DNA of 64,000 bases from Candidatus Binatia bacterium (GCA_035631035.1 DASQJL010000060.1:1-64000); one strand, 5' to 3'. Shown: positions 38,110-45,909, numbered from the stretch's first letter. The notes: generated by a model from the letters alone, not told the origin. A program made the numbers and translations.

Positions 38110-38411
38110 GACTGTCTCCCACATCCGGCTTCTGGCGGCGTCGAGGAGCGGCGCCGGGGCCGCGGGCTCGATCGCCTGGCGTGGGCTGCGTCCCCGGGCC
38201 AGGGCCGTGAGCGGCGTTCGAGTGCTGCCGCTCGCACCGTCCCTAATCAATCGCCATGCCGCGCCACTAAGTGTCTATAACTAAATAACTTAACCAAAGC
38301 GCCCGGATCCGAGGGCTCGGATGACGTGTCAATGTTGACACGCGACCTCATCGAGAGCACGCTGGCGCCAATCCCAAGCTCAATCGGACCCAGGTGATGG
38401 AGGCGCGTGTC
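38110..38411. other. Divergent regulatory region with AT-rich patch
   Basis: A 302-base region between two divergent lipoprotein genes. An unusually AT-rich stretch (38268-38298, with TATAACTAAATAACTTAACC) and a palindrome (see 38325-38342) make it the most promoter-like intergenic region in the window. No gene seen. Confidence 0.5.
38325..38342. promoter_or_regulatory. Perfect inverted repeat containing outward TTGACA boxes
   Basis: CGTGTCAA-TG-TTGACACG. Each arm contains TTGACA, the sigma-70 -35 consensus, on opposite strands. On the plus strand the matching position for -10 (about 38358) is a poor CACGCT; so it is more likely an operator, perhaps overlapping a -35 box of the lipoprotein-kinase-regulator operon. 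Binding protein unknown. Confidence 0.55.
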
Positions 38412-39521
38412 ATGACGGACACGGAAGTGCGCGGGATGCGCCGACGCGGGAAGCTGCTCTTCGCCGCCATCGCGCTGGCGACGGCCTCCTGCGCCGCGGT
38501 CACCCCGAGAAGCTCGCCGACGCGCGTGCTCTGGGTCCGGGGCGACCACGTCTACGTCGCGCTGGGGGATGGCGCGCCGGCCGCTCCCGGCGATTCGGTG
38601 CGCTTCGGCGATCGAGGAACCCCGGTGGGAAGCGGCACCGTCATCGAAGTCGTTCGGGACGAGATGGCGATCGTCGCGCTCACCTCGGGATCGCTCGCGC
38701 GCGTGAAGAAGCTCGAGCGCGTGCGCGCCGTGATCGCGCACGCGCCCGGTGCTGTGCCCGCGTCCCTTCGCGTAGCGCTCCCCTCGGGAGATCGCGGCAA
38801 CCTTCTCTTCCGCTGCCCGGATCGGCCGCCCGGGGTGCCTCGTCTCCCCGAGGGGCTTCGCGGATACGTGCTCAACGAGGCGCAGCGATCCGAACGGCCA
38901 ATCCGATTGCGGCCCGATCCGCACGTGCGTCCCCCCTCGCCCTGGCCCGATACGCTGATCGTTCACTACTTCGAGAACGCGACCGACGAGGAGATCGCCC
39001 TGGAGCGCGGCGACGTGGACGTGGCCGTGTTCTGGCCGGGAGAGCTGTCGCGGAGGATGCGGGAGGACGCGCGCTGGAAGGATTCGCCTCGCGGCGTGCG
39101 AAGCCGCGGGATCGTGGCGATCACGGGAGCCGACCTCGTCCCCGCGGGCCTCGACTCGTCCACCGCGCTGGCCCTGGACGACGAGCTGTTCCGCGGCGAC
39201 CTGGAATGGACCGGCTTCTTCCTGCCGCCCTCGGAGCGGGGGCCGGGCCAGCTGGGAATCGACGAGAGCCTTCCCGGCGCCGCGACCCTCCGCGCGTGGC
39301 TCACGCGCCGCCTCGGGACGCCCCGCGGAGGCGTCGTCGGGCGGATGGCGTACGTCGACGCGCCGTTCGATTCGGCCGCGGCCCCGGGATTCCAGCCGCT
39401 CTACCGGATCACCTGCCCCGTGGTGAGCGGGCCCGCGTGGCGCCGGACGGTCGAGGCCATCGGCGCCGGAGTCTTCGTGAACATGGCGGTCTGCGCGCCG
39501 GCCGCGGCCGGAGGGCGATGA
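38412..39521 (+). CDS. Lipoprotein of unknown function, encoded with a two-component system
   Basis: 369 residues; ATG at 38412 with GGAGG 8 bases upstream. Lipoprotein signal LLFAAIALATASC. The next 90 residues look like a small beta domain (RVLWVRGDHVYVALGD, SVRFGDRGTPVGSGTVIEVV), after which the sequence resembles a truncated substrate-binding protein (PDTLIVHYFENATDEEIALERGDVDVAVFWPGELS in parts; LEWTGFFLPPSER). A periplasmic-binding-protein-like lipoprotein preceding a histidine kinase, with a 4-base overlap, suggests it supplies or senses the signal. The domain call is weak; the operon position is firm. Confidence 0.7.
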   Translation: MTDTEVRGMRRRGKLLFAAIALATASCAAVTPRSSPTRVLWVRGDHVYVALGDGAPAAPGDSVRFGDRGTPVGSGTVIEVVRDEMAIVALTSGSLARVKKLERVRAVIAHAPGAVPASLRVALPSGDRGNLLFRCPDRPPGVPRLPEGLRGYVLNEAQRSERPIRLRPDPHVRPPSPWPDTLIVHYFENATDEEIALERGDVDVAVFWPGELSRRMREDARWKDSPRGVRSRGIVAITGADLVPAGLDSSTALALDDELFRGDLEWTGFFLPPSERGPGQLGIDESLPGAATLRAWLTRRLGTPRGGVVGRMAYVDAPFDSAAAPGFQPLYRITCPVVSGPAWRRTVEAIGAGVFVNMAVCAPAAAGGR

Positions 39522-41233
39522 ACTCCCTCCGCGTCCGGCTCATCCTGGGCTTTGCGCTCGTCGCCCTCGTGCCCCTCGCGATCGCGATCGTCCTCCTCAC
39601 GGATCGGATCGAGACCATGGTCCGGACCCAGGCCGCGGACCGGGTCACTTCGGCCCTTCAAGCGATCACGACCCAGCTCGCCGATGACGAGCGGCGGACC
39701 CTGGAGAAGACGCAGATCCTCGCGCGTGATCCCGAGCTCAAGCGGCTCTACCTCGTCCGCGGCGCCGGAGGCCGCGAACTCGCCGATTACCTCGAAGAGC
39801 GCCGGTTCCTGCTCGGATTCGACTTCCTGCGCGTCCTCGACTCGAGCGGTGCCCTACGCGCCGACGCCGCCGAGGCCGTCACGACGTCCGATGCGGTGCG
39901 GCGCGCGGTCCGTCCGGCGCCGCCGCGCCCCGGCGGGAGATTCGTCGTCTCCATCCGGAGGCTCGAAGGGGACTCCGGCCTGGCGCTCGTCGCGCGGGCC
40001 CCGATCCCCTATCAGGGGGAGAGCGTGGGAAGCGTCGAGGGAGGACTCGCCCTCGACGCCGAGTACCTCGACCGCTGGCGCGCGCGGAGCGGGATTGGCC
40101 TGGCGCTTCGGGATGCCGAGGCCAAACCGGTCGTCGGGGACGCCGCCGCGGGGTTTCCCATGTCCCCCGGCGTGTGGGGGCGGCTCCGGAGGGTCTATGC
40201 CCAAGGGGCCATCATCAGCGAGACGGTTCCGATCGCCATCGGCGATCCGCCGTACGCGTCGCTCGTCGGCGGCGCGGGTACGGAATCCTCCGAGGCGACG
40301 ATCACGTCGCTCCAGTGGGCGTCCGCGGTCCTGGGGCTCGTTGCGCTGGCGATCGCGATCGTGCTCGGCTTGGCCTGGTCGCGCCAGATCTCGCGCCCGG
40401 TCGAGCAGCTGGCCGCCTATTCGGAGAAGCTGGCGCGCGGCGAGTGGGACGAGCCGCTCGCGTTGCACAGCGTGCGCGAGCTGGAGACGCTGGTCGAAGC
40501 GCTCGACCGGATGCGGCGCGATCTCCTGTCCTATCGCGAGCGCCTCGTGGTGACCGAGCGGCAGGCGGCGTGGAGCCAGATGGCGCGCAAGGTGGCGCAC
40601 GAAGTGAAGAATCCGCTCACGCCGATCGCGATCTCGATCGCCGATCTCCGGCGAAGCTACGAGTCCAAGCGCCCCGATTTCCCCGCGATCCTGGATCAAG
40701 CCGTGCGCACCATCGGCGAAGAGGTCGAGACCCTGAAGCGGCTCCTCCAGGAGTTCTCCGACTTCGGCCGCTTCCCGCCGCCGCGCATCGAGCCCTGCCG
40801 CTGGTCGGGCCTGGCGGCCGACCTCGAGACGCTCTACGGCGAGGAGATCCGATCCGGAAGACTGGCGGTGTCCCCCGAAGGCCGCGCACTCGTCTTCCCC
40901 GCCGACGCGGGACAGATCCGCCAGGCCCTCGTGAACCTGGTCCGGAACGGTCTCGACGCCACGGCCGCCGGCGGCGGGCGCGTCGCCGTCGGCGCGTGCG
41001 CGGAGCATTCCACCGCCGTGATCACCGTCGCCGACGGCGGTCCCGGCCTGACCGCCGAGCAGCGCGCGCGCCTCTTCACGCCGGGCTTCACGACCAAGCC
41101 GGAGGGAAGCGGCCTGGGACTCACGATTGTGGAGCGGATCGTGAACGACCACGGCGGGACGATCGACGTGCGCTCCGGGCCGGGCCAGGGCACCACCTTC
41201 ACCCTCCGGCTCCCCCTGCGGCGCGAGGCCTGA
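39518..41233 (+). CDS. Sensor histidine kinase, NtrY/AtoS-like
   Basis: 571 residues. Two hydrophobic spans (about 8-27 and 265-290) bracket a periplasmic sensor domain of about 240 residues; a HAMP domain (RQISRPVEQLAAYSEKLARGEWDEPL in parts), HisKA with phospho-acceptor His in KVAHEVKNPLTPI, and HATPase (VNLVRNGLDA, VADGGPGL, GFTTKPEGSGLGLTIVERIV) follow. The HEVKNPL form is typical of NtrB/NtrY-class kinases that drive sigma-54 activators, matching the next gene. Coupled to the upstream lipoprotein gene by a 4-base overlap. Signal unknown. Confidence 0.95.
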   Translation: MNSLRVRLILGFALVALVPLAIAIVLLTDRIETMVRTQAADRVTSALQAITTQLADDERRTLEKTQILARDPELKRLYLVRGAGGRELADYLEERRFLLGFDFLRVLDSSGALRADAAEAVTTSDAVRRAVRPAPPRPGGRFVVSIRRLEGDSGLALVARAPIPYQGESVGSVEGGLALDAEYLDRWRARSGIGLALRDAEAKPVVGDAAAGFPMSPGVWGRLRRVYAQGAIISETVPIAIGDPPYASLVGGAGTESSEATITSLQWASAVLGLVALAIAIVLGLAWSRQISRPVEQLAAYSEKLARGEWDEPLALHSVRELETLVEALDRMRRDLLSYRERLVVTERQAAWSQMARKVAHEVKNPLTPIAISIADLRRSYESKRPDFPAILDQAVRTIGEEVETLKRLLQEFSDFGRFPPPRIEPCRWSGLAADLETLYGEEIRSGRLAVSPEGRALVFPADAGQIRQALVNLVRNGLDATAAGGGRVAVGACAEHSTAVITVADGGPGLTAEQRARLFTPGFTTKPEGSGLGLTIVERIVNDHGGTIDVRSGPGQGTTFTLRLPLRREA

Positions 41234-41235
41234 CG

Positions 41236-42594
<1,359 letters not shown>

Positions 42595-42833
42595 CGCGAC
42601 GTCCGGCCTCGATCGGCGGGCTCGGTCATGGATCCTTCCCTGCGTGACCGGCATCACAGATGCGAGCGGGGCGGGGCGCCCAGGGTAAAGCCGTTGCCGG
42701 TGAGGACCCGGACGGGCGGGAACCGCCGCCGGTCCGGAGGGGTACCGAGGGCATGACCGCCGGACACCCGGGCCATCCGGGAAGAGCGAAGGTCCCCCCT
42801 TTCGCACGGCTCGAACAACGGAGGGATGCGGCT
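42595..42833 (+). other. Untranslated leader of the TlpA-DUF4266-DUF3570-ApbE operon, possibly structured
   Basis: This 239-base region upstream of tlpA has no convincing gene. It contains several hairpins: GGCGG-GAA-CCGCC at 42716-42728 within a longer GGACC...GGTCC stem (42703-42736), CCCGG-GCCAT-CCGGG at 42767-42781, and GCGAA...TTTCGC at 42786-42805. GGGTAAAGCC (42683-42692) and GGGGTACCGA (42739-42748) faintly recall parts of the c-di-GMP-I aptamer, but the rest does not fit. A structured leader is possible; no family is assigned. Confidence 0.35.
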
Positions 42834-43346
42834 TTGAAACGTGGCTCACCCGTTCCGGCGGCCGCGTTCCTGGCCGCGGCCCTGCTGTTCATGCTCGCAC
42901 CCGGCGCCCACGCAGCGGCGCCGCCGCGCGGTGCCGTCGCGCCGTCGTTCAACCTCCCGACCGCCACCGGTTCGGTCTCGCTCGACTCGCTCCGGGGGAA
43001 AGTCGTGCTGGTCGATTTCTGGGCATCCTGGTGCGTTCCCTGCAAAAGCTCCTTTCCCTGGATGACCGCCATGCACCAGCGCTACGCCCCGAAGGGCCTC
43101 GCCATCGTCGCGATCAACGTGGACAAATCGCGGAAGTCGGCGCAGGAGTTCCTCGAGAAGCATCCCGCTCCGTTCATCGTCGCCTATGACCCCGACGGCA
43201 AGACCGCGAAGGCGTTCCACGTCTGGGGCATGCCCACGAGCTACCTCATCGCGCCGGACCGGTCGATCCTCTTCGCGCGATCGGGCTTCGATCCCAAGCA
43301 CGCCAAGGACGTCGAGGCGATGATCGCCCAGGCGTGCGCGCGATGA
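42834..43346 (+). CDS. TlpA-family thiol:disulfide oxidoreductase, exported
   Basis: 170 residues from a TTG at 42834 chosen because GGAGGG lies 8 bases upstream and a signal peptide (PAAAFLAAALLFMLAPGAHA) follows at once; the frame is open to 42660. Thioredoxin fold: PSFNLPTATGSVSLDSLRGKVVLVDFWASWCVPCK in parts, with the active-site CVPC, then VAINVDKS and the cis-Pro GMPTSYLI. It would act in the periplasm, usually as a reductant in TlpA/ResA-type proteins. First gene of the cassette; its stop overlaps the DUF4266 start (ATGA). Its partner is likely a cysteine-bearing protein, and the downstream DUF4266 lipoprotein has a conserved Cys-x-Cys end. Confidence 0.92.
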   Translation: MKRGSPVPAAAFLAAALLFMLAPGAHAAAPPRGAVAPSFNLPTATGSVSLDSLRGKVVLVDFWASWCVPCKSSFPWMTAMHQRYAPKGLAIVAINVDKSRKSAQEFLEKHPAPFIVAYDPDGKTAKAFHVWGMPTSYLIAPDRSILFARSGFDPKHAKDVEAMIAQACAR

Positions 43347-43579
43347 GCGCGCGCGTTCGGCTCCTCATCGCGCGGACGCTCCTGGCCACCGCCGCCGCGG
43401 CGTCCGCCGGCTGCGCGGCGATGAAGGTGGAGCCCTGGGACCGCGATCTCCTCGCCGAGAAGAAGATGAGCTTCACCCCCGCACCCCTCGAGTCCGCCAT
43501 CGACGACCATGTCTACTTCAGCAAGGAGGGCTCGACCGGCGGCCAGGGCGTCGGCGGGGGCGGATGCGGATGCAACTGA
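43343..43579 (+). CDS. DUF4266 lipoprotein with C-terminal GGGGCGCN
   Basis: 78 residues. The signal ends ASAGC (lipobox Cys24). The rest follows the DUF4266 pattern: KVEPWDRDLLAEKKMSF, DDHVYFSKEGSTGGQGVG, ending GGGGCGCN at the last residues, a Cys-Gly-Cys. The mature lipoprotein would be only about 55 residues, mostly the Gly/Cys tail. The family has no known activity; it recurs next to DUF3570 proteins. The conserved Cys pair could be a disulfide exchanged with the upstream TlpA protein or a metal or flavin site; this is inference. The ATG is coupled to the TlpA stop; an in-frame GTG 9 bases earlier is possible. Confidence 0.88.
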   Translation: MSARVRLLIARTLLATAAAASAGCAAMKVEPWDRDLLAEKKMSFTPAPLESAIDDHVYFSKEGSTGGQGVGGGGCGCN

Positions 43580-43601
43580 GCCGATCGCGGAGGCGCGCGC
43601 G

Positions 43602-44978
43602 ATGACGCCTCCTCCGGGAGCGACGCCCCGGCGCGTCTCTCCGCTCCGCGCCCGCCTCGGCGCCGCGGCCTGTCTTCTCGTGGCCGCGGGCGCGCGGAGC
43701 GCGGCGGCGCAGCTTCCCGATTCGACCGTCGCGCCCGACACCAGCTGGAATCCCGATTCGACGCGGGCCCCGCTGGCGGCGCCCGCCGCCGCCTACCGGT
43801 GGCAATTCGACGGCGCGGGCCTTCTCTACAGCGAGAAGGGGCGCGCCAAGGTGATCGAGCCGCAGGCCCGCATCACGCGGCTCTTCCCCGACGGGCAGAC
43901 CCTTTCCGCCACCCTCGGCCTCGACGTCATCACCGGCGCCTCGCCCACGGGCGCGATCCCCACGACCACCGTCCAGACGACGACCACCCCCTCCGGCAAC
44001 GTCCAGACGCAGACCGCGAACGAGGTGCCGACGCACCCCTTCAACGACCTCCGCACGGGGCTGGACCTCGAGTGGACGAAGCCGGTCGGCGGCTGGCTCA
44101 CCCCGTCCTTGGGAACGCATGTCTCGATGGAGAAGGACTACCGCTCGCTGGGGGGCACGGCCAAGCTGTCGGTGGCGATGATGCGGCGGCTCACGACCCT
44201 CACGGTGGGAGCCGGCTACAACGAAGACCGCGTGGACCCGCGCGGCGGAACGCGCGCGCCCCTCACCGACGGCACCGTCCTCCTCGGCACGGGAGCGAAC
44301 CCGAAGCGGGTCCGGAGCGCGCTCGCGGGGGTCTCGCGGGTGCTCACGCGCCGCTGGCTGTTCGGGGTGACCGGCTCGCGCACGACCGAGCACGGCTATC
44401 TCACCGATCCCTATAAGGTGATCAGCGTGCTCGACGCGACGGGCGCGCCCACGAGCGACGTGGTGACGGAATCGCGCCCCTCCTCGCGGACGCGCGACGA
44501 CGTGCTCGCGAGCTCGGTCTACCACCTGGCGCAGAACATCCTGTACGCCTCCTATCGCTACTACTGGGACGATTGGGGCGTCCGGTCGCACACGGCCGAC
44601 GCGCGCTATCGCGTGGAGCTGCCGAACCAGAGCTATCTCCAGCCGCACATCCGCTACTACTTCCAGACGCGCGCGAATTTCTTCCAATTCGGGCTGCCCC
44701 AGGGCGCTCCGCTCCCCGAATTCGCGACGAGCGACGCGCGCCTGGGAGACCTCCGGACCATCACGCTCGGCGCCACGTATGGATTCCATCCGCACGCCGG
44801 TCCGGGCGAGGTGACCCTGCGGGCCGAGTATCTCCGGCAGTGGGGCAAGGGATCGGGAGGTCAGGACGGCGGCGAGCTCGAGGGCGAAGCGGCCCCGGCC
44901 GCTTCGTCCGGGCCGATCGACTTCATCCCGCCGGAGAGCATCGGATCGATCGTGGTCGGGTACTCGGTTCCCTTCTAG
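43602..44978 (+). CDS. DUF3570 family outer membrane beta-barrel protein
   Basis: 458 residues from the ATG at 43602 with GGAGG upstream. Signal peptide (LGAAACLLVAAGARSAAAQ). The body consists of alternating amphipathic strands rich in Tyr/Trp/Phe (YRWQFDGAGLLYSEK, LDLEWTKPVGGWL, YASYRYYWDDWGV, YLQPHIRYYFQTRANFF) and ends in an aromatic Phe (VVGYSVPF), which is the outer-membrane insertion signature. A short motif DVITGAS at residues 108-114 (43923-43943) matches the D-x-x-(S/T)-G-A-(S/T) consensus of ApbE flavinylation sites, and the ApbE gene lies 8 bases downstream. Function unknown; redox coupling is inference. Confidence 0.88.
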   Translation: MTPPPGATPRRVSPLRARLGAAACLLVAAGARSAAAQLPDSTVAPDTSWNPDSTRAPLAAPAAAYRWQFDGAGLLYSEKGRAKVIEPQARITRLFPDGQTLSATLGLDVITGASPTGAIPTTTVQTTTTPSGNVQTQTANEVPTHPFNDLRTGLDLEWTKPVGGWLTPSLGTHVSMEKDYRSLGGTAKLSVAMMRRLTTLTVGAGYNEDRVDPRGGTRAPLTDGTVLLGTGANPKRVRSALAGVSRVLTRRWLFGVTGSRTTEHGYLTDPYKVISVLDATGAPTSDVVTESRPSSRTRDDVLASSVYHLAQNILYASYRYYWDDWGVRSHTADARYRVELPNQSYLQPHIRYYFQTRANFFQFGLPQGAPLPEFATSDARLGDLRTITLGATYGFHPHAGPGEVTLRAEYLRQWGKGSGGQDGGELEGEAAPAASSGPIDFIPPESIGSIVVGYSVPF

Positions 44979-44985
44979 GCGCCGC

Positions 44986-45909
44986 ATGCGTCCGGCCCAC
45001 GCCAGTACCGCCGGCGCGCCTCCCATCGTGGAGCGCGCCGGAGACGTTTTCATCGGACGATTCACCGCCATGGCGAGCCCGTGCGAGGTCCTGGTCGACA
45101 CCGACGACCCGGCCGAGGCGGGCTCGCTCGCTTCGCGGGCCGCCGCCGAAGCACGCCGCGTCGAGGCGAAGTTCAGCCGCTATCGCGAGGACAGCGTCGT
45201 CGGACGCCTGAACCGCGCGCGGGGAGCGCCGACGGCGGTCGACGAGGAGACGGCGCGCCTCCTGGACTACGCCGCCGCCTGCTGGGAGGAATCGAACGGC
45301 CTCTTCGACGTGACGACCGGGGCCCTTCGCCGGGCCTGGACGTTCGACGGGAGCGGCCGGCTCCCGAGCCAGGACGCCGTGCGCGCGGCGCTGCGCGACG
45401 TGGGGTGGGCGCGCGTCCGGTGGGACGGCGCGTCGCTCACGATGCCGGCGGGGATGGAGGTCGACCTCGGGGGAATCGGCAAGGAATACGCGGTCGACGG
45501 CGCCGCCGCCCTCCTCATGGAGCGAACCGAAGCGCCGCTCCTCGTGAACTTCGGCGGCGATCTCTTCGCGAGCGGTCCGCGCCGGGGCGGCGCGGCATGG
45601 ATCGTCGGCGTGGACGATCCCGCGCGCACCGGCGCTTCCGCGCTCTATCGCGTCGACCTCCTCGGCGGCGGTCTCGCCACGACGGGCGACGCCCGGCGCT
45701 TCGTGCTGCGGGACGGAAAGCGCCTGGGACACATCCTCGATCCGCGGACCGGATGGCCGGTCGAGGACCCGCCGGCCTCGGTCACCGTGCTGGCGCGCAG
45801 CTGCCTCGAGGCGGGCACGCTCTCGACCCTCGCCTATCTGCACGGCTCCGGCGCCGAGGCGTTCCTGCGCGACCAGGGGGTGGAGTTCCGCATCATTCCC
45901 GGCGCTTGA
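44986..45909 (+). CDS. apbE: FAD:protein FMN transferase ApbE
   Basis: 307 residues. Transfers FMN from FAD onto Ser/Thr of target proteins in the periplasm. Landmarks: FTAMASPCEVLV, KFSRYREDSVVGRLNRA, NGLFDVTTGALRRAWTF, the DLGGIGKEYAVDGAA substrate-binding core, LVNFGGDLFASG, LATTGDARRF, and the HILDPRTGWPV Mg-site motif. An N-terminal lipoprotein or signal sequence is not obvious, so its location is unclear unless the start lies elsewhere. Last gene of the TlpA-DUF4266-DUF3570 cassette, 7 bases after DUF3570, which offers a DVITGAS target. Confidence 0.95.
   Translation: MRPAHASTAGAPPIVERAGDVFIGRFTAMASPCEVLVDTDDPAEAGSLASRAAAEARRVEAKFSRYREDSVVGRLNRARGAPTAVDEETARLLDYAAACWEESNGLFDVTTGALRRAWTFDGSGRLPSQDAVRAALRDVGWARVRWDGASLTMPAGMEVDLGGIGKEYAVDGAAALLMERTEAPLLVNFGGDLFASGPRRGGAAWIVGVDDPARTGASALYRVDLLGGGLATTGDARRFVLRDGKRLGHILDPRTGWPVEDPPASVTVLARSCLEAGTLSTLAYLHGSGAEAFLRDQGVEFRIIPGA

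Follow-up and report, generated by a model that had tools for sequence, protein, structure and literature searches.

The window analysed here, a stretch of 64,000 nucleotides from a 3.35 Mb draft genome of Candidatus Binatia bacterium, contains a cassette of four intact genes encoding a TlpA-like protein, a DUF4266 lipoprotein, a DUF3570 protein and ApbE (Table 1). The coordinates of the four ORFs agree with the original prediction, including the 4-base overlap (ATGA) shared by tlpA and DUF4266 and the 7 bases between DUF3570 and apbE; 22 bases separate DUF4266 and DUF3570. Because of this close spacing, the four genes would constitute a single transcription unit; a scan of the cassette region showed no clear sigma-70-like promoter or intrinsic terminator. 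Pfam matches were obtained for DUF4266 (E 1e-21), DUF3570 (9e-84) and ApbE (5e-66), and the tlpA product matched AhpC-TSA/Redoxin (3e-23), with PF13899 reaching merely 1e-3. The lipoprotein had been described from the sequence as tiny and ending in Cys-Gly-Cys; the motif is there, but the last residues are Cys-Gly-Cys-Asn. The two-component genes end 240 bases upstream of tlpA and are possible regulators of the cassette. None of the four cassette genes encodes a cytochrome, and no transporter or TonB-type gene lies within or beside the cassette in the window.

Table 1. Features of the cassette and its surroundings in the window
Feature	Position	Strand	Description
ORF 5' of the two-component genes	38394-39521		375 aa, no Pfam match
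Two-component pair	39515-42594	+	HAMP/HisKA/HATPase sensor kinase and NtrC-type sigma-54 activator (Pfam); kinase start approximate
GGAGG	42820-42824	+	5' of the tlpA TTG start
tlpA	42834 (TTG)-43346	+	periplasmic thiol:disulfide carrier (TlpA-like); signal peptide; active site WASWCVPCKSSFPWM
DUF4266 lipoprotein	43343-43579	+	lipobox ends at Cys24; Gly-rich tail, end GGGGCGCN
DUF3570	43602-44978	+	exported; predicted 16-strand outer-membrane beta-barrel; C-terminal Phe
Flavin acceptor motif of DUF3570	43923-43943	+	D108-V-I-T-G-A-S114; predicted acceptor Ser114
apbE	44986-45909	+	FAD:protein FMN transferase; no signal peptide or lipobox; core begins FTAMASPCE

Relation to described clusters and gene linkage

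Gene clusters combining ApbE and DUF3570 with DUF4266 and a thioredoxin-like protein were described by Méheust et al. in 2021, with DUF3570 in 227 DsbD clusters and 316 further clusters without DsbD; the CXC tail of DUF4266 was already pointed out, and the authors proposed a thioredoxin/flavin hybrid whose function was uncertain (PMC8238504). The view in the original prediction that neither DUF4266 nor DUF3570 has a described function is thus outdated. In the same study, the DUF3570 of Chlorobium luteolum was flavinylated by its cognate ApbE at [S/T]GA[S/T] sites in E. coli, with both proteins lacking signal peptides and the barrel mostly insoluble (PMC8238504).

The window cassette is almost certainly a member of this system, having the four families in one cluster, one canonical [S/T]GA[S/T] motif as ApbE substrate site in DUF3570 and the CXC end of DUF4266 (GGGGCGCN). 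It differs in having a single acceptor motif, whereas two were reported, and a thioredoxin of the AhpC-TSA/TlpA type instead of PF13899. Also, the cluster has no DsbD, like the 316 DsbD-less clusters and unlike the DsbD-linked subtype, and its ApbE has no signal peptide, a point not stated in the main text of the 2021 paper. The barrel and the position of the flavin site are added here to the described system: the terms lipoprotein and beta-barrel are absent from that main text, where "outer membrane" is used solely for siderophore transporters (PMC8238504), and neither the name DUF3570 nor a barrel is mentioned in later papers of the same group, among them the 2024 follow-up, or in the 2025 ApbE review (PMC12052999). 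Neither the barrel and site position, nor the signal-less cassette ApbE, nor the pairing of motif and ApbE was found in the open-access papers searched, among which the 2021 study alone names DUF3570; a later description may exist among subscription papers and preprints.

A DUF4266-first scan of genome contigs returned 551 relatives, of which the best 80, mostly Gammaproteobacteria plus one locus each from Eisenbacteria and Thermoanaerobaculia, were looked at. In these best 80 of 551 loci, the adjoining genes include DUF3570 (80/80), TlpA (76/80) and ApbE (73/80), four of the seven loci missing ApbE being at or near contig ends. DUF3570-first searches provided the unbiased converse. Within the window's phylum, which in the survey includes a locus named Candidatus Eisenbacteria, DUF4266 adjoins DUF3570 in all 22 places looked at; in two further groups, the phylum of the Acidobacteriota member L063 (16/199 genomes) and the Shewanella-containing order (32/119), DUF4266 adjoins in 44 of 46 places and ApbE lies within 1.5 kb in 34 of 46. 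The linkage of DUF3570 and DUF4266 is near-obligate for this cassette type. The co-occurrence of the two families stated in the original prediction was confirmed by both surveys (80/80 among the best 80 of 551, and 44/46), and apbE and tlpA are likewise consistently linked in this cassette type.

The conserved neighbours are two-component genes (27-29 loci), cytochrome b561 (nine loci, in Shewanella) and a COX1-like protein (seven); around the 87 surveyed loci there was no consistent partner naming a substrate and no conserved uptake gene. The cytochrome b561 gene precedes the cassette in these nine Shewanella loci (e.g., L091:6650-7222) and is a possible quinol-side electron source there. In most type A relatives (e.g., L074 and L028), DUF3570 starts with MQL within the last DUF4266 codons (ATGCAACTGA), overlapping the Cys-Asn-stop; this overlap is lost in the window, where the DUF3570 start comes 22 bases later.

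The arrangement recurs in Gammaproteobacteria, Eisenbacteria and Acidobacteriota and is therefore not due to chance; the cassette is also frequent among relatives that can be cultured, in Shewanella, Rheinheimera and Kangiella. The source genome has a single DUF3570 copy; DUF3570 is present in 19 of 47 genomes of the window's phylum, and it was found in none of the eight other genomes of the window's own family. The window ApbE clusters with copies from the Acidobacteriota phylum (L063, from Thermoanaerobaculia, and L162) within an Eisenbacteria clade. This placement, together with the missing DUF3570 in the rest of the family, points to a history of gene exchange or loss. No relative was encoded on viral contigs, and plasmids gave just four remote partial matches.

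Predicted DUF3570 barrel and flavin site

An AlphaFold2 model of DUF3570, built from 57 family members and for the protein alone without flavin, has 16 strands (pLDDT 85, pTM 0.81), with low confidence in the signal peptide, the N-terminal linker and residues 420-430. The even number of antiparallel strands, the signal peptide and the C-terminal aromatic residue (F458) are those of an outer-membrane beta-barrel. The predicted barrel has short turns on one face and five long loops on the opposite face; since barrels usually have both termini in the periplasm, the long loops would be extracellular. A sequence search of solved structures with DUF3570 gave no match, and Foldseek matched OmpG, TodX/FadL, OpdK and AlgE at TM 0.3-0.6, values generic for barrels.

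The motif DVITGAS fits exactly the ApbE acceptor consensus D-x-x-[S/T]-G-A-[S/T] (PMC12052999), and D108, [ST]111, G112 and [ST]114 are each invariant in 57 of 57 sequences. In the model, strand 3 carries the motif at its outer end, where D108 and S114 belong to the polar face that lines the lumen. When the 57-sequence alignment is placed on the model, all 30 invariant positions fall in the outer half of the barrel. Among residues that face the lumen, mean conservation is 3.4 bits in the outer half and 2.7 bits in the inner half (Mann-Whitney p 6e-5), and it is 2.1-2.3 bits for residues that face the lipid. For whole strands, the outer and inner halves differ weakly (p 0.09; strand-flip rank 4189 of 65536): it is the residues facing the lumen, and the invariant positions, that carry the conservation signal. 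Based on these two, the working chamber is predicted to be the extracellular half of the lumen, with conserved charged residues around the flavin site.

This position bears on two other readings of the cassette. In one, the flavinylated barrel is the endpoint of periplasmic thiol chemistry with no outward electron transfer, for instance in repair or in metal reduction at the inner face; it would suit the periplasmic TlpA and DUF4266 lipoprotein (the latter predicted on the inner leaflet) and the VIT1 iron transporters that neighbour 25 published clusters (PMC8238504), but is unlikely, as the acceptor motif and all invariant residues are in the extracellular half and not at the periplasmic face. 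Similarly improbable is a role of DUF3570 in uptake, with a reducible substrate (a ferric chelate, for example) being reduced by the luminal FMN as it comes in through the channel. The resemblance to the uptake and diffusion channels FadL, OpdK, OmpG and AlgE, the charged and conserved outer chamber and the iron-transporter neighbours of some published clusters (PMC8238504) are in line with uptake; the fold matches are, however, generic, and uptake genes are missing both at the cassette and as conserved neighbours in the 87 loci.

Cassette ApbE and the compartment of flavinylation

The window ApbE begins right at the catalytic core, its alignment with solved ApbEs starting at residues 32-44, and has no signal peptide, lipobox or hydrophobic N-terminal segment. 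It matches the solved enzymes 1vrm (E 1e-37), 5mgy, 3pnd and 6nxi, with VDLGGIGKEYAVD and GHILDPRTG aligned. In the type A loci, 79 of 80 ApbEs have no hydrophobic N-terminal stretch, with up to 60 upstream codons read through, and the sole exception has no clear start codon. Across 12 genomes in which every ApbE was searched, the 13 copies beside DUF3570 all lack a signal and 16 of the 17 found elsewhere have one; the exception, L153, is the sister of L148, which adjoins a DUF3570 match. The cassette ApbEs form one fully supported clade, with the window copy inside, and two further ApbE clades beside SGAS-type DUF3570s look signal-less too. The cassette copies have MASPCE in place of the usual MGT, the Cys being present in about 92 of 101 strict-motif copies (including the window) by a rough pattern count.

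The relaxed-motif ([ST][STA]A[ST]) DUF3570s of a second cassette (type B) were used as a contrast class. A signal-less ApbE accompanies 99 of 101 strict-motif loci versus 2 of 10 readable relaxed-motif loci (Fisher p 4e-9, phylogeny ignored), counts that include some ORFs whose start or reading frame is uncertain (L034, L042, L083 and others); L042 is for this reason misplaced in the ApbE tree. L172 is a strict-motif locus whose ApbE seems to be secreted.

Type B occurs at 14 loci of the window's phylum (L035-L048), having a divergent DUF3570 with DAITTAS (DGITSAT in L040), DUF4266 and, except in L040, tlpA. A type B cassette without a flavin site was considered and ruled out, as the alignment shows the relaxed motif DAITTAS at the same place. 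A model of the type B DUF3570, of lower confidence, is 16-stranded as well and places the motif in outer loop 2. The cytoplasmic flavin step would accordingly not be universal, since the relaxed-motif DUF3570 types keep the fold and mostly use a secreted ApbE; the acceptor site seems to be conserved, and the motif and the location of the enzyme seem to shift in concert. The type B DUF4266 tail is CAC, L040 excepted. The two clusters described in detail (L037:6849-13470 and L042:562-9711) also encode a secreted ApbE, a secreted NHL/FlgD-Ig protein, a small outer-membrane barrel and a lipoprotein with HZS_alpha (the Pfam hydrazine synthase alpha middle domain) and PD40. The HZS_alpha-like gene is preceded by one for a small lipoprotein (L037:11592-12266, minus strand; L042:2598-3347, plus strand) with C-x5-CHGG (GCDATGDCHGG), a spacing unusual for a heme site.

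The missing export signal, overlooked in the original prediction, changes the place of flavinylation: in the simplest reading the flavin goes on before export, and it is probably attached to DUF3570 in the cytoplasm. Flavinylation of an unfolded precursor in the cytoplasm is feasible, given that the C. luteolum test worked without signal peptides and with a mostly insoluble barrel (PMC8238504). The bacterial cytoplasmic ApbE described in the 2025 review, that of Klebsiella pneumoniae, flavinylates a soluble fumarate reductase (PMC12052999); it likewise has no signal peptide, but its target stays cytoplasmic, whereas that of the window ApbE is an exported outer-membrane barrel. With this case as its parallel, a cassette ApbE serving another cytoplasmic protein, DUF3570 being a barrel aided by TlpA and DUF4266 for a different purpose, is very improbable in view of the invariant acceptor motif, the near-obligate adjacency and the direct C. 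luteolum demonstration (PMC8238504). Additionally, the genome has just one other ApbE, which is secreted and encoded about 3 kb away from the sole FMN_bind match; the natural target left for the cassette enzyme is DUF3570.

Proposed electron path

TlpA contains WASWCVPC, and its best solved relative is 3gl3 (putative DsbE, E 2.7e-36), followed by ResA. DUF4266 has the conserved segments PWDRDLLA and DDHVYFSKE, a signal region that is hydrophobic in 86 of 88 copies, a lipobox Cys invariant in nine aligned sequences and the tail GGCGCN in 88 of 88 type A copies. Judging by its length, mature DUF4266 (about 55 residues, with the Gly-rich tail) could reach into the barrel. The window cluster contains no DsbD gene; the sole DsbD_TM match of the genome is a CcdA-like protein encoded beside a different TlpA on another contig (C11), and it is a plausible electron source for the cassette.

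Here it is proposed that the signal-less ApbE would use FAD to attach FMN to Ser114 of the DUF3570 precursor while this is still in the cytoplasm, flavinylation as such being shown for C. luteolum only and carried over by homology, and that the flavinylated precursor would then pass through export and enter the outer membrane as a 16-strand barrel. The cytoplasmic location, the barrel and the site position are supported by computation, and would place FMN within the lumen, close to its extracellular mouth, in the chamber of conserved charged residues. For the thiol arm, we infer that a CcdA/DsbD-type protein would keep TlpA reduced, TlpA would reduce the DUF4266 outer-membrane lipoprotein at its Cys-Gly-Cys tail, and this long tail would enter the barrel from below and hand electrons to FMN, which in turn would reduce an acceptor at or outside the cell surface. 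The mechanism as a whole, from cytoplasmic flavinylation to the surface acceptor, is given about an even chance. The flavin- and thiol-based envelope redox system of the original prediction is supported by the near-obligate linkage, the exact motif and the flavinylation of the C. luteolum DUF3570; its putative barrel and electron path across the outer membrane fit the model.

More tentatively, the cassette may be a heme-free outer-membrane conduit, in which a barrel loaded with flavin in the cytoplasm would receive electrons from a dithiol tail in its lumen and pass them to outside acceptors. As in the porin-cytochrome conduits of the MtrCAB type, an outer-membrane barrel is proposed to carry electrons across the membrane; in contrast, the window cassette has no hemes, with a covalent flavin and a dithiol lipoprotein proposed in place of the cytochromes, and the barrel has 16 predicted strands. 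To our knowledge, the cassette has no sequence relation to such conduits, and we know of no precedent for the export of a flavinylated precursor.

New here are the predicted flavin at the exterior end of a barrel lumen and the cytoplasmic enzyme for an exported target, which raise two questions: can a precursor be exported once flavinylated, and can electrons pass the outer membrane without hemes? If true, the heme-free conduit would be a thiol/flavin counterpart of the porin-cytochrome conduits, with the compartment of ApbE tracking the acceptor motif of DUF3570.
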